Virus record (IMG/VR): IMGVR_UViG_3300046542_000623
Span: 1-32,331 of that record
Source: a virus
Reading direction: 5' to 3' (one strand)
DNA: 32,331 nucleotides
Below are positions 2,528 to 15,572 of this stretch, piece by piece. The notes under the pieces are model-generated. The model saw only the letters and a list, made by a program, of their open reading frames with translations, was not told the origin of the DNA and did no database searches. The position numbers and the translations under genes are program-made. Numbering within the stretch: position 1 is the stretch's first letter; every line of letters begins with the position of its first letter.

Positions 2528-4663
2528 TCATGTGGTGCTTTCGATGGATTCGAGTTCGGTGTAATCCGCGCTCAACGCCCAGCGTTCGACCATGTCTTCG
2601 GGCTGCGCGTTGGGGTCCTTGGACAACTCGAGCATCCATGCGCGGTCCCCTTGCTGCTGGGTAAGCGTCCCGATTCGTCCCTTGGTGGGCAGCAGTTTCT
2701 TGCCAGGTCCGCGTAGGTCGACGCGGATTCGAACCTGCTGGCCCGGGGTAAAGGCCTGGGGGGAATCGGCCTCTGCAGCAGCCATGGCATCTGCAATGGC
2801 TCGCGTGGTTTCCTCGGCCGACGCCTTGGCATTTTTTTTCAGTTTGGGCTGGGCTATGTCTGCCGGCTGGCTCTTGCCGGCGCGCTCTGCAGCCTCCTTC
2901 TTCATCGCATCTTGTGTGTCCTTCTGGATGGCTGCCAGGGACACGCCCGCAAGGCCGTGCAGCTCCTCGAGGTAGTTGGCTTGCCCATTGGGCCGCGGTT
3001 CCAGATCTTGGGTGCTCGCCAATTGAAGAATGAACTGCAACTGGGTGGTCAGCTCTTGCTCCGAGGCGCATTCCATTGCCTCATCGAGATCGACCTCCGC
3101 GCGTGGATCACTCAGCGGGATCTGGAACATCAGAAAGAGCTGCTCGCGCGGCACGCTGGCAGCCAGTTGCTTCAAAACCAACAATGCAATGTTGCTGGGA
3201 ATGTGATCCAGATCCTCAGGCGGGCAGTTCGCCAGTCCGAGAATCGTGGCTTCCACCGCGCGCTTTCGCCAGCGCCTCTGGTACTCGGTCTCGAGTTCAT
3301 CCCGGGTTGGATCGATTGATTTTTGGCTATTGGCCTTCTTTTGAGACTGGCTTTCGACCTTTGCTTTAACTGCGGCGCTGGCGGCATGCGTGGGCACGGC
3401 CTCCACAAGGTTTCCGCTAGGCGCCTCTATCAGCACGACGCTGGCTGCTGAGACTTCTTGGCCCAGCACCTGGCGCACGGGGGCTTTGCTGCCCTGGCTG
3501 GGCTTGTCAAGCAGGATATAGCCGCGGGGAGAACCTGTTTCGCTCGGCATGATGTCGCGGGCAGCGCGGCCGGTGATGATCTGCTGTCCGCGCTGAGCGG
3601 CGTCAGCCTTCACGCGGTCGAAGTGGGCATCCTTCTTTTCGGCGAAGCATGCTGTGTCAGTACAGACGTCTGCATCGTTTTTGTCCCATAGTTCGGGCGT
3701 GGCGCCGGTGCGCTTGGGGCACACCGTGCAGGCGCCCGCCGTCTGGCACAGATTCACATCGTCCAGGGCGAATGGGGCCTGGTCGAGCTTGGTCATGTAG
3801 TTGCGACGGGCCAGATCCAGGGCGCTGCGGTAGCTCATGGGGCCGTCTTCTGGCCCGCCCGTGAGGACGCGATTCGTGAATTCAGCCTGCATTGCCTGGG
3901 TAGGGCGCTGCGCCACCAATAGAGCGACACTGCGCTTGAGGGTGCCGGCCTTGAGTGCCGCCATCGCTTCAGGGCAAAGCGTCAGCAGGCGCAGGGATTC
4001 GAAGACGTGGGAGCGACTCTTGCGCAGTGCCTCTGCCGCAGCCTCGGGCGTGTAGCCGTGCTCCTCGACCAAGTGCTGCACACCCTGTGCCTCCTCGAGC
4101 GCATTCAGGTCACGGCGGTGCAGGTTTTCGATCAACTGCATCAGCAGCGCTTGCTGGTTGTCAGCATCCTTCTCCAGGTGGGGCACCTCGCGCAACCCGG
4201 CGATCTGTGCAGCGCGATAGCGGCGCTCGCCGGCGATGATTTCGTGCGTGGCCTGACGTGTGGCCGCAGTCTCGAAGGTGTCCTGCAGGCGATCGCCCGG
4301 TAGACGGCGTGTCAGCAAGGGCTGAAGCACGCCATATATCTTCATGGTGGCGGCCATCTCGTAGAGGTCGTCATCCTCTACAACGGGGCGGTTGGTGCGA
4401 CTTGGGGCAAGACGCACCAGCAAGATCGTGGGCTGCTTGATCACTGCGTGCTGAGGGCCAGCATGCTGCTCCACGACTTCGAAGGCATCCAGTGGCAGGT
4501 TGGTCAGTATGTCGCCGACACGGATCTGATACTGCCGGCCGCCGGGCGTCTTGGCAATTACGGTGCCACGCTGGCCCGCCTGCGGATGCTGTTTGCCGCC
4601 TTTGGCTGTCGCATCCGCACTGATAATTACTTCGCGGTAAATGAGTGGATCAGACCGTGCCAT
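2528..4663 (-). CDS. parB: Large ParB/Spo0J-family nuclease-fold DNA-binding protein
   Basis: The 711-aa product has the ParB core: GVLQPLLTRR (111-120), the C-motif IIAGERRYRAAQIAGL (142-157), ENLHRRDLNALEEAQG (179-194) and a helix-turn-helix around 203-225 (YTPEAAAEALRKSRSHV). A cysteine cluster CQTAGACTVCP...CTDTACF at about 305-340 resembles a zinc site found in large phage and plasmid ParB-like proteins. Both ends look like KOW/SH3-type beta folds: GQRGTVIAKTPGGRQYQIR near residue 30 and GRIGTLTQQQGDRAWMLEL near 660. Usual ParB is about 300 aa, so this is more than twice as long. No ParA is in the window, so classical partition is doubtful; transcription control or nucleoid-type binding is an alternative. 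Its ATG overlaps the preceding stop (TAATG at 4661-4665), implying translational coupling. Confidence 0.9.
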   Translation of the reverse strand: MARSDPLIYREVIISADATAKGGKQHPQAGQRGTVIAKTPGGRQYQIRVGDILTNLPLDAFEVVEQHAGPQHAVIKQPTILLVRLAPSRTNRPVVEDDDLYEMAATMKIYGVLQPLLTRRLPGDRLQDTFETAATRQATHEIIAGERRYRAAQIAGLREVPHLEKDADNQQALLMQLIENLHRRDLNALEEAQGVQHLVEEHGYTPEAAAEALRKSRSHVFESLRLLTLCPEAMAALKAGTLKRSVALLVAQRPTQAMQAEFTNRVLTGGPEDGPMSYRSALDLARRNYMTKLDQAPFALDDVNLCQTAGACTVCPKRTGATPELWDKNDADVCTDTACFAEKKDAHFDRVKADAAQRGQQIITGRAARDIMPSETGSPRGYILLDKPSQGSKAPVRQVLGQEVSAASVVLIEAPSGNLVEAVPTHAASAAVKAKVESQSQKKANSQKSIDPTRDELETEYQRRWRKRAVEATILGLANCPPEDLDHIPSNIALLVLKQLAASVPREQLFLMFQIPLSDPRAEVDLDEAMECASEQELTTQLQFILQLASTQDLEPRPNGQANYLEELHGLAGVSLAAIQKDTQDAMKKEAAERAGKSQPADIAQPKLKKNAKASAEETTRAIADAMAAAEADSPQAFTPGQQVRIRVDLRGPGKKLLPTKGRIGTLTQQQGDRAWMLELSKDPNAQPEDMVERWALSADYTELESIESTT

Positions 4664-11936: not shown

Positions 11937-12122
11937 ATGAAATCGGTCGATCAGTTGGTCAGCGAAGGCGGCTCCCGATGCGTGTTGTGTGCGTGCAACG
12001 GCACCCCCCCTATGGGTCCTCCCGGCGCCGGAATTCACCGGGGTAATTCGGCCCCCGCACACGCGCCAGTCGCTGCCTTGCATCAAAGTGAACGATCAGG
12101 TGAACGCAGGGGCTGCAAGTGA
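11937..12122 (+). CDS. Small hypothetical ORF before TerS
   Basis: The frame begins MKSVDQLVSEGGSRCVLC and gives 61 aa. The start has a good Shine-Dalgarno sequence (AAAGGAAA, 11929 region), and the stop overlaps the GTG start of the small terminase (GTGA at 12119-12122), both signs of a real coupled gene. The second half is rich in Pro, Gly and Ala and has no fold signal. A CxxC pair (CVLCAC) near residue 15 might bind metal. No family is recognised. It could serve mainly as a translated leader for the terminase gene. Confidence 0.45.
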   Translation: MKSVDQLVSEGGSRCVLCACNGTPPMGPPGAGIHRGNSAPAHAPVAALHQSERSGERRGCK

Positions 12123-12688
12123 ACGGCCGCGTACAGCTGATCAGCCAGTCGGAGTACGCCCGGCGCCGTGGCGTGGCGAAGTCGGCGGTGGCCAAGGCAG
12201 TGGCCGAGGGCCGGATTACGCTGATCAACGGCAAGGTGGACCCGGCCGTGGCCGATATCCAGTGGGAACAAAACACCCGCGCCCGCGCCGACAGCAAGCG
12301 CACAGGCGCGTCGTCTGGGATAGGTGCAGGGGAGGGCCTGCCTACAACTCAAGCCCCTGCCAACGCCCCGGATTCGGTCCCTGCTGCGCCCGGCTATAAC
12401 GACTACCGCGCCATCCGAGAAAAAGCAGATGCCGAAATGGCGCAACGCGCCAACCTCAAGGACGCGGGCCTGCTGGTTGATCGCGTGCGCGTTGAGCGTG
12501 GCGTTTTTGACGTGGTCCGCGTCTACCGCGATGCGGTCATGGCCATCGGCCAGCGCGCCGCACCCAAATGCATAGGCCTAGCCGACGCCCGCGACGTCGA
12601 ACATGTCATCACCGATGAAACTCGCAAAGCGCTTGAGGGCTTCGAGGCCCGACTGCTGGCGTTGCTGCCTCCGAAGGAAACCACCTGA
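12119..12688 (+). CDS. terS: Terminase small subunit (Nu1-like)
   Basis: The 189-aa product starts with a helix-turn-helix (ISQSEYARRRGVAKSAVAKA, about residues 8-27) for recognition of the packaging site. A Pro/Ala-rich linker (70-95) follows, then a helical region (YRAIREKADAEMAQRANLKD) that in the Nu1 family dimerises and contacts the large subunit. It begins with GTG overlapping the preceding stop. Its own stop overlaps an ATG (TGATG at 12686-12690), the junction that in relatives would lead into TerL. Here TerL is displaced by 790 bp carrying an antisense gene. Role: binds cos/pac DNA and loads the packaging motor. Confidence 0.75.
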   Translation: MNGRVQLISQSEYARRRGVAKSAVAKAVAEGRITLINGKVDPAVADIQWEQNTRARADSKRTGASSGIGAGEGLPTTQAPANAPDSVPAAPGYNDYRAIREKADAEMAQRANLKDAGLLVDRVRVERGVFDVVRVYRDAVMAIGQRAAPKCIGLADARDVEHVITDETRKALEGFEARLLALLPPKETT

Positions 12689-12852
12689 TGCGCAACCATC
12701 AATTTATTCAGTCCAGAGAAAGCGCACCGATCGCTGACGAGTTTGCCTTCCGCGGCTCTCTGGCAGGGGGGGGTAACGGAGAACTGGAGAGGCTAGATTC
12801 GGACGCTGAGCAGTGCATGAAATCACTTGCAGATAGTGCACATGGACTATTT

Positions 12853-13419
12853 CTAATCCACAAAACCTTGCTCTTCGGGCGTCAATGGTTTTACGTGCGG
12901 CAGCGATCCCTTTTCAAAGTCCAAGAGCGCCGCGCGCAGTGTTACATGGGCGTAATAAATCACATCCTTTATACGCGTGAGGTGTGTCATCCTTTCATTT
13001 CTATTCATTTGATGCCAGCCGACTTTTGCGTTCTCGAATTCCCGCAACTCACGGCCTATGGCTTTGAGACAGCCGATGGCCACTGCCGCGCGATATGCGG
13101 CATTGTTTGGCAAAGGCTCAAGAAGCGAAAGAGCTTCTGCATCCAACACACTGATTGCGGATTCCCACCTTTCAGGCAACAGGGTCGGAAAATTATCGCA
13201 AATGGCGATATCGATTTTTTGAATCTTAAGACTAACGTTTATACGACCGACTATGTCGACGATGTCTGTCAGTTGAGGGTGGTAAGTGGCCGCGTGAAGT
13301 CCAGCCATCTTTCTAGCAACTTTTCGCGCTTTGTATTCGGTGCGGCTTGCGATGCCGAGTGCCGCAATAGTTGCCGCTACGGTTGCGACAGCAGAAATAG
13401 CGTTCCAGTTCCAGTCCAT
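12853..13419 (-). CDS. Antisense membrane-anchored protein inserted between TerS and TerL
   Basis: The 188-aa product begins MDWNWNAISAVATVAATIAA, an N-terminal hydrophobic segment to about residue 22. A basic stop-transfer region (SRTEYKARKVARK) and a helical cytoplasmic body follow. I do not recognise a family. It is encoded against all neighbours, inside the terminase operon, and its base composition is lower in GC than the flanking genes. These are features of a moron, a cargo gene expressed from its own promoter in the lysogen. I could not identify a convincing promoter or terminator around it. The opposite strand frame (12688-13482) is open too but gives an unnatural protein. Exclusion or defence are candidate roles by position and topology only. 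Confidence 0.7.
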   Translation of the reverse strand: MDWNWNAISAVATVAATIAALGIASRTEYKARKVARKMAGLHAATYHPQLTDIVDIVGRINVSLKIQKIDIAICDNFPTLLPERWESAISVLDAEALSLLEPLPNNAAYRAAVAIGCLKAIGRELREFENAKVGWHQMNRNERMTHLTRIKDVIYYAHVTLRAALLDFEKGSLPHVKPLTPEEQGFVD

Positions 13420-13478
13420 CTGAGTGTTTCCATCTGCGAATACGAGAAGTTCACATCGTTACATACAGGTGAAGGCGC

Positions 13479-15572
13479 ATGAATCTTGCTGACGGCTACG
13501 AGCTAGTCCTGCGCACAGCAATCGAGGCCGCACGCCCAGATCCTGAACTGCGCATTGATGAGTGGGCAGAAGAATTTATGGAGCTGCCAAAGAGTGCACC
13601 GCATCCTGGAAAGTTTCGCTTTGAGCGCACGCCGTACGCGCGCCGCATTGCGCAAGTCTTGTCTCCAGGTCACCCTTGCAAACGTGTTGTGGCCAAGGTG
13701 GCGTCACAAATGTTCAAAACACAGACGGCCATCAATGCCATCGGCGCCTGGATACACCGCGCGCCGGCTAATATTCTGGCGCTTCAGCCCACAGATGGCC
13801 TGGCCAAGCGCTTCAGTGCGCGCGTGTCTCAGGCCATTCGCCTTGTGCCGGTTTTGCGCGAATGCGTTAGCGAACAAAAGAGCCGCGACAAGCGCAACAC
13901 CACACAGGCAAAGGACTTTCGCGGCGATGCCACGCTGTATATCAACACCGCGGGCTCGGCGTCCAACCTGGCCGAGATCACGGCGCGTTACCTGTTTATC
14001 GACGAGGTTGATCGTCTGCCGCCGCTTGACGAAGGCGATTCGGTCGAGATCGCTGAGGCACGGGCCACCCAGCATGAGCGCGACTGCAAATTCTATGAAG
14101 TCAGTAGTCCGACCATTGAAGGTTTCAGTAAGATCGATGAGCTGTTCAAGATGGGTACGCAAGAGGTCTACCGCGTGCCGTGCCCGCACTGTGACCACCA
14201 CCACGAGCTGCTGCTTGAGAATTTCCATTACCGCCGGGATGAAGACACCGGCTTCATGGACCGCGCCTGGTTCGTCTGCCCCGAATGCGGCAGCGAGATC
14301 GAGGAGCGTGCAAAAGCGACGATCTTCCTCGATGCCCAAGCGGGCGGTACCGCGCATTGGCATGCCACAGCCACGGGCGATGGTGAGACCATCAGCGTCA
14401 CCATGTCGGCGTTCTACATGCCGATTGGCGCCATCAGCTGGCTCAGCCTTGCGCGCCAGTACGACCGCGCACGGCAGGCATTGCAGCGCGGCGACCACAC
14501 GCTCATGCAGGCGTTCTACAACACGCGCCTGGGCCTGAGCTACCGTAACAGCGAGTCGACTACCACCGCCAAGCAGCTGCGTGACCGTGCCGAGGAATAC
14601 GCGCCGCGTGTGCTGCCAGAGCAGGCGCTTGTGATTACCATGGCGGTGGACACCCAGCCCAACCGACTGGAAGCCCAGATCGAGGCCTGGGGCCCCGGCA
14701 TGGAGCACTGGGTACTCGACTACATCACCCTTATTGGCTCGCCCGCCGAGCCGCCCGATACGCCGGGCAGCGTATGGGCGCGCTTGGACGAGATCCGACG
14801 CACTCCGCTGTTGCATGCCAGCGGACGCCCCATCATGATGAGCGCCTACGGCATCGACGCCGGCGGTGCGAACACGCAGGACGTCTACAACTACGGTTCT
14901 GCGCGCAAAACCCTCAACTGCACGGTGCTGCACGGCGCAACGCGGCCCAATCGCCCCATCATGGGCAGTGCGCCGTCGCGGGTGGATATTGAGTGGGGAG
15001 GCACCAAGACGCCCGGCGGCGTGGAGTTGTGGCAGGTAGGCACCGACGTGGCCAAGGATTGGCTTAGCTCGCGCATGCAGCTCGCTGACGGTGCCGGGGC
15101 CATGCACTTTCACGACAAGCTGCCACATGAATGGGCCGAGCAGATGGTGGTTGAGCAGCCGCGCACGCGTTGGGCCAAGGGGCGCGCAATTCGCGAGTGG
15201 GTCAAGCCCAACGGCGCGCGAAACGAAGCGCTGGACGTGTCGGTCTACAACCTCGCCATTGCCTACCAACTGGGCTTGCACAAGTGGTCGGCCCTCGACT
15301 GGAAGCGCCTGCGTGACAAGTTGGTGCCCGAGGGCGTGACACGGGACTTGTTCGCTCCAGCTCCGGCTGTTGAAGCTGCCATCCCGCCGGACGCTTTGCC
15401 TGTCCCTGTCCCAGTGATCACATCTGCCAATGATGTGCCGGAAGGACCACCGACTACGGTCCAGACGTCTGTACCTGCATCCCATGTAGCCCCACCACAA
15501 CCCGCACAGGCTTACGTCCACCCTGCACCCGCCCCAATGGGGCGCCGCATTTTGTCCCGAGGAATCCGCTGA
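13479..15572 (+). CDS. terL: Terminase large subunit (lambda gpA family)
   Basis: The 697-aa product fits the gpA family in length and motifs. It has an atypical Walker A, AKVASQMFKTQ (72-82); Walker B, YLFIDEVD (171-178); a two-CxxC zinc module, CPHC (235-238) and CPEC (267-270); and the RNase H-like nuclease acids D391 (MAVDTQ), D460 (YGIDAGG) and the D in EALDVSVYN near 575. It cuts concatemers and translocates DNA into the prohead through the portal. The C-terminal 80 residues are Pro/Val rich and probably disordered. The start ATG lies in an ATGA junction with an upstream open frame. The stop overlaps the next start (TGATG at 15570-15574). Confidence 0.95.
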   Translation: MNLADGYELVLRTAIEAARPDPELRIDEWAEEFMELPKSAPHPGKFRFERTPYARRIAQVLSPGHPCKRVVAKVASQMFKTQTAINAIGAWIHRAPANILALQPTDGLAKRFSARVSQAIRLVPVLRECVSEQKSRDKRNTTQAKDFRGDATLYINTAGSASNLAEITARYLFIDEVDRLPPLDEGDSVEIAEARATQHERDCKFYEVSSPTIEGFSKIDELFKMGTQEVYRVPCPHCDHHHELLLENFHYRRDEDTGFMDRAWFVCPECGSEIEERAKATIFLDAQAGGTAHWHATATGDGETISVTMSAFYMPIGAISWLSLARQYDRARQALQRGDHTLMQAFYNTRLGLSYRNSESTTTAKQLRDRAEEYAPRVLPEQALVITMAVDTQPNRLEAQIEAWGPGMEHWVLDYITLIGSPAEPPDTPGSVWARLDEIRRTPLLHASGRPIMMSAYGIDAGGANTQDVYNYGSARKTLNCTVLHGATRPNRPIMGSAPSRVDIEWGGTKTPGGVELWQVGTDVAKDWLSSRMQLADGAGAMHFHDKLPHEWAEQMVVEQPRTRWAKGRAIREWVKPNGARNEALDVSVYNLAIAYQLGLHKWSALDWKRLRDKLVPEGVTRDLFAPAPAVEAAIPPDALPVPVPVITSANDVPEGPPTTVQTSVPASHVAPPQPAQAYVHPAPAPMGRRILSRGIR

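Follow-up and report, generated by a model that had tools for sequence, protein, structure and literature searches.

A minus-strand open reading frame in a variable cargo slot between the terminase genes of a lambda-type prophage lineage

The junction between the terminase genes terS and terL is a variable cargo slot in a lambda-type prophage lineage with relatives in the Comamonadaceae. In the phage described here, the slot has lost a DNA methyltransferase gene, and a low-G+C stretch with a minus-strand open reading frame (ORF) now stands in its place; "the window" denotes the complete IMG/VR record of this virus (32,331 bases). The likeliest reading, given slightly less than an even chance, is that this antisense ORF is a moron and that its membrane-anchored product serves the lysogen by excluding or blocking other phages.

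The phage is temperate and, according to profile matches, encodes an integrase, a ParB-like protein, an HTH repressor and both terminase subunits. It also encodes lambda-family portal, S49 peptidase, cement, capsid E and tape measure proteins. The prophage early region also contains a 711-amino-acid protein with ParB_N and HTH_ParB domains (window 2528-4663, minus strand), which is far longer than the usual ParB. Both terminase genes are intact (Table 1). TerS shows 57-75% identity to the 12 relatives with which it was aligned, and TerL matches GpA_ATPase (PF05876, 2.6e-61) and GpA_nuclease (PF20454, 1.1e-78). The nearest relatives of TerS are found in L083 (79.8%), L052 (74%) and L017 (68%), the last being a phage of the methyltransferase type. 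The nearest relative of TerL is that of L002 (87%), where the slot is empty, followed by those of L090, L047 and L003. The nearest relative therefore switches between TerS and TerL, and the switch coincides with the gap between the two genes, which would provide a simple route for the exchange of cargo by recombination.

Relatives were gathered by TerL from IMG/VR and bacterial genomes, and by TerS from IMG/VR; after removal of duplicates, 38 distinct loci that contain both genes and a TerL at least 60% identical were used for counting. Named hosts include Acidovorax, Comamonas, Xylophilus, Hydrogenophaga and Pseudacidovorax. The junction is empty in 20 of the 38 loci, where the TerS stop and the TerL start nearly always share ATGA (a four-base overlap), and the other 18 carry cargo of 171-3630 bp. 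Most of the identifiable cargo consists of sense-strand DNA modification genes, mostly of the methyltransferase or PAPS-reductase-like kind. The only cargo of L004 (3751-5004, plus strand) is a gene for a 417-amino-acid PAPS-reductase-family protein (DndC, 6.9e-34), the start of which overlaps terS and the stop terL. In L056 (2373-6004), an 841-amino-acid protein that combines an N6/N4 methylase domain with a weakly helicase-like part is followed by a PAPS-reductase/SspD-like protein, and the pair resembles a modification pair inside the packaging operon.

Table 1. Features of the terS-terL region in the window and in related loci (positions without a locus name refer to the window).
Feature	Location	Strand	Remarks
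terS, terminase small subunit, intact	12119..12688	+	left wall of the cargo slot; phrog_57, E 1.8e-25
Scar, opening 27 codons of a C5-cytosine DNA methyltransferase gene now lost	12688..12768	+	start overlaps the TerS stop (TGATG)
Plus-strand open frame across the slot, 264 aa	12688..13482	+	starts with the scar; the rest mirrors the antisense ORF exactly
Antisense cargo ORF, 188 aa, orphan	12853..13419	-	ATG start; predicted single N-terminal anchor and helical body
Region upstream of the antisense ORF	13420..13478	-	47.5% G+C; weak GGAA motif resembling a ribosome-binding site
terL, gpA-type terminase large subunit, intact	13479..15572	+	right wall of the cargo slot
C5-cytosine methyltransferase in slot	L017, L018, L020, L021, L042, L051, L114	+	PF00145 in L017
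C5 methyltransferase of another type in slot	L006	+	
D12 adenine methyltransferase in slot	L028, L047	+	
PAPS-reductase/DndC-like proteins in slot	L004, L006, L056	+	
N6/N4 methylase protein in slot	L056	+	
Short ORF alone in slot, about 70-90 aa	L023, L025, L054, L090		
Small predicted ORF just before terL, 105 aa	L114 7420-7737	-	after an intact methyltransferase gene
Small predicted ORF just before terL, 72 aa	L051 5756-5974	-	after an intact methyltransferase gene
Small predicted ORF just before terL, 91 aa	L006 4720-4995 (L006/L048)	-	

The preliminary description had proposed that cargo was inserted between two coupled genes. Since relatives that share the terminases and lack the insert exist, the antisense gene is inserted cargo, and that part of the proposal stands. 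The splitting of a coupled pair does not, as the slot already existed and a methyltransferase was lost from it. Similarly, the TGATG at the end of terS and the ATGA at the start of terL had been taken as the preserved halves of a former TerS-TerL junction, but each has another origin. TGATG is the junction between TerS and the methyltransferase in L017, L018, L020, L021 and L042, while ATGA is inherent in the Met-Asn start of TerL and is found in most close relatives.

Evidence for the earlier cargo comes from position-anchored DNA identity. The first 81 bases after terS match the beginning of the slot methyltransferase from its start codon and without gaps (MRNHQFIQSRESAPIADEFAFRG vs MQNPQFILGLDDELLVDEFACGG). 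Identity to the seven slot methyltransferases amounts to 41-47 of the 81 bases, and these genes take ranks 1-7 among the 2,066 ORF starts of all fetched loci (mean 24 matches); the starts of ten further genes (other cargo or TerL) give 19-28 matches. For the methyltransferase of L017, no other of the 64,502 positions on the two strands of the window matches as well as the scar (45/81). The identity fades beyond about 75-80 bases, and a search for a 3' scar of the methyltransferase found none. The methyltransferase profile missed the scar because it is too short. Judged by these identities, the slot earlier held a C5-cytosine methyltransferase gene of which only the first 27 codons or so remain, so that the antisense ORF stands where earlier cargo was lost. 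The slot of L016 (4821-5000, plus strand) holds only the first ~60 codons of an L006-type C5 methyltransferase and seems to be another such scar.

The gap between terS and terL measures 790 bases. A minus-strand gene of different composition had been described there, and both points were confirmed: the ORF lies between two profile-matched terminase genes and has a G+C content of 50.1%, compared with 65.4% for terS, 62.1% for terL and 60.2% for the window. The prediction of a single N-terminal anchor was likewise upheld. Residues 7-25 of the encoded protein have a mean Kyte-Doolittle hydropathy of 1.93 and precede an Arg/Lys-rich stretch, and this hydrophobic segment with its basic flank fits one anchor at about residues 6-25. 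In a single-sequence model of low confidence (mean pLDDT 60, <50 in the anchor region) the body of the protein is helical; a fold search with this model gave no match. Inside the ORF, the plus strand has two hairpins that resemble terminators and end in T-rich tails (window 13194-13210 and 13084-13102), and three such hairpins were found in 12400-13700 against 1.4 expected. If real, those inside the ORF would fall in the terS-terL interval of the late transcript.

No homologue of the antisense protein was found in phages and plasmids (tblastn), in IMG/VR (pattern searches) or in 13 + 401 + 398 genomes, and no relative in the family and PDB sequence libraries. No profile for a known defence or exclusion family in PADLOC, PHROGs, Pfam or NCBIfam matched significantly, the sole NCBIfam match (0.054) being far under the family cut-off and at chance level. 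Weak genome matches were rejected as short fragments within longer frames. Two loci were also discarded: in L071 the match falls inside another ORF, CoA-binding-like by reading of its translation, and in L070 the pattern matched at N-terminal residues only, opposite another gene. Because the collections searched contained no relative of the protein, no function can be transferred to it, and because the same holds for its plus-strand mirror, conservation cannot decide which strand codes.

Cargo between terS and terL is of an already known kind, to which the phage group, the scar and the antisense protein add new instances. In lactococcal 936-type phages the same slot contains orphan methyltransferases, a homing endonuclease and unknown ORFs, present or absent depending on the phage, and 65.55% of ninety genomes have ORFs at this position (PMC4190342, PMC4759559). 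The 936-phage slot methyltransferases are described there as protecting against restriction (PMC4190342). However, these phages belong to another lineage and host than the window phage, and the available text of these reports does not mention minus-strand cargo. A Burkholderia phage carries 15 ORFs between terS and terL (PMC10269572). As in morons (PMC4378225), the antisense ORF forms one predicted coding region between two genes that lie next to each other in relatives, and its composition differs from that of the neighbouring genes. Unlike in the definition of morons (PMC4378225), an own promoter and terminator were not found by consensus scan: the search for sigma-70-type promoters returned 0 sites versus 0.8 in shuffles, although promoters of the host may deviate from it, and no minus-strand terminator was recognised. 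Furthermore, a typical moron occupies an empty junction, while the antisense ORF stands in place of lost cargo.

A minus-strand gene at the same position has been characterised in Pseudomonas phage JBD26 (JN811560). There, tab lies between the terminase genes under its own promoter; its product blocks tail assembly and so provides constitutive defence, and the anti-Tab gene, directly after terS, neutralises Tab in lytic growth (PMC10884400). The antisense ORF shares with tab the minus strand between terS and terL and the tail-to-tail arrangement with a plus frame sharing one base with the TerS stop codon. Like the antisense ORF, tab is G+C-poor compared with its terL (54% against 64%) and absent from close relatives. 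The two differ in that Tab has 83 amino acids and is soluble, while the window protein has 188 and a predicted anchor, and in that the promoter of tab has been mapped and the tape measure protein proven as the target of Tab. The antisense protein was rejected as a member of the Tab family (best blastp alignment to Tab, E 62). With E values up to 100 allowed, the plus frame shows no similarity to anti-Tab; it begins with the methyltransferase scar, and the terminases and tape measure protein of JBD26 are not similar to those of the window.

If the antisense ORF is a moron, it would possess its own promoter and be transcribed in the repressed prophage, as its orientation away from the late operon suggests. 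The hydrophobic segment and basic flank point to a small inner-membrane protein with its N terminus outside and its helical body in the cytoplasm. Its benefit to the lysogen would most likely be the exclusion or blocking of competing phages. In where it lies, which strand it occupies and when it is presumably active, the gene would resemble tab of JBD26, but the mechanism would presumably be a different, membrane-based one. In the lytic cycle, late transcripts crossing the slot would be antisense to the gene and would tend to silence it. The functional step, a benefit to the lysogen through exclusion or blocking of other phages, is placed somewhat under one half, and it is proposed because the only characterised minus-strand gene at this position, that of another phage, is anti-phage and because the other slot cargo looks protective. 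By analogy only, the same two points argue against a lysogen-expressed cargo gene whose product is unrelated to phage exclusion and serves instead in membrane physiology, in lysis/lysogeny control or as an addiction factor. Such a gene is rather unlikely, although all the evidence for a moron applies equally to it, the functions of morons are varied and nothing in the sequence or fold of the antisense protein indicates defence.

It is quite unlikely that the slot contains no functional gene at all and is a decayed or recombined remnant in which both mirrored frames are accidental. This would agree with the orphan status of the antisense protein in every collection searched, with the decayed methyltransferase start that precedes the ORF, with the truncated methyltransferase start that alone occupies the slot of L016, and with the lack of a recognised promoter. 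The codon score of the ORF is near zero (0.007, compared with 0.22-0.39 for the training genes), which is expected for foreign DNA and equally for non-coding DNA. However, an ORF of 188 amino acids was reached in only 13 of 2000 dinucleotide shuffles of the gap, and the N-terminal hydrophobic segment, basic flank and ordinary amino-acid composition look protein-like. Similar minus-strand ORFs also recur in three relatives (L114, L051 and L006/L048). These predicted ORFs are mutually different and all G+C-poorer than their own terL; they matched no known family, and no relatives of them were found except the same prophage in its host genome.

The preliminary description did not mention the plus-strand frame, which reaches from the stop codon of TerS to the start codon of TerL and is in exact mirror register to the antisense ORF. 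That this frame is the real gene, co-transcribed with the terminases and casting the antisense ORF as its shadow, is very unlikely: it does sit just where sense cargo is coupled to the terminases, its start overlapping the TerS stop and its stop the TerL start, and JBD26 has a plus-strand partner gene directly after TerS, but its first 27 codons are methyltransferase-derived, its composition is shadow-like (5.3% Cys, 7.2% Phe), its codon score (-0.173) is below that of the minus frame, though such scores separate mirrored frames weakly, and its protein has no match in phages. An ORF this long arose in 0 of 2000 shuffles, which is not independent evidence, because a stop-free mirror frame is easier to obtain once the minus frame codes. 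Taken from the sequence, the minus frame is clearly more likely to be coding than the plus frame, and the latter, downstream of the scar, is probably a shadow of the antisense ORF.

With the Comamonadaceae-type prophages and their gpA terminases, another unrelated phage group joins the known users of the terS-terL cargo slot, and the methyltransferase scar shows the turnover of cargo directly. A broader, unlikely reading is that the site upstream of terL serves unrelated lineages as a convergent docking place, with lysogen-expressed anti-phage genes on the minus strand and late protective modification genes on the sense strand. If this were true, the window protein would be a new membrane-based exclusion factor, and the minus strand of the slot would reveal anti-phage genes without homology. 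Should the slot's minus-strand genes function as tab does, position would predict anti-phage genes that are invisible to homology searches.
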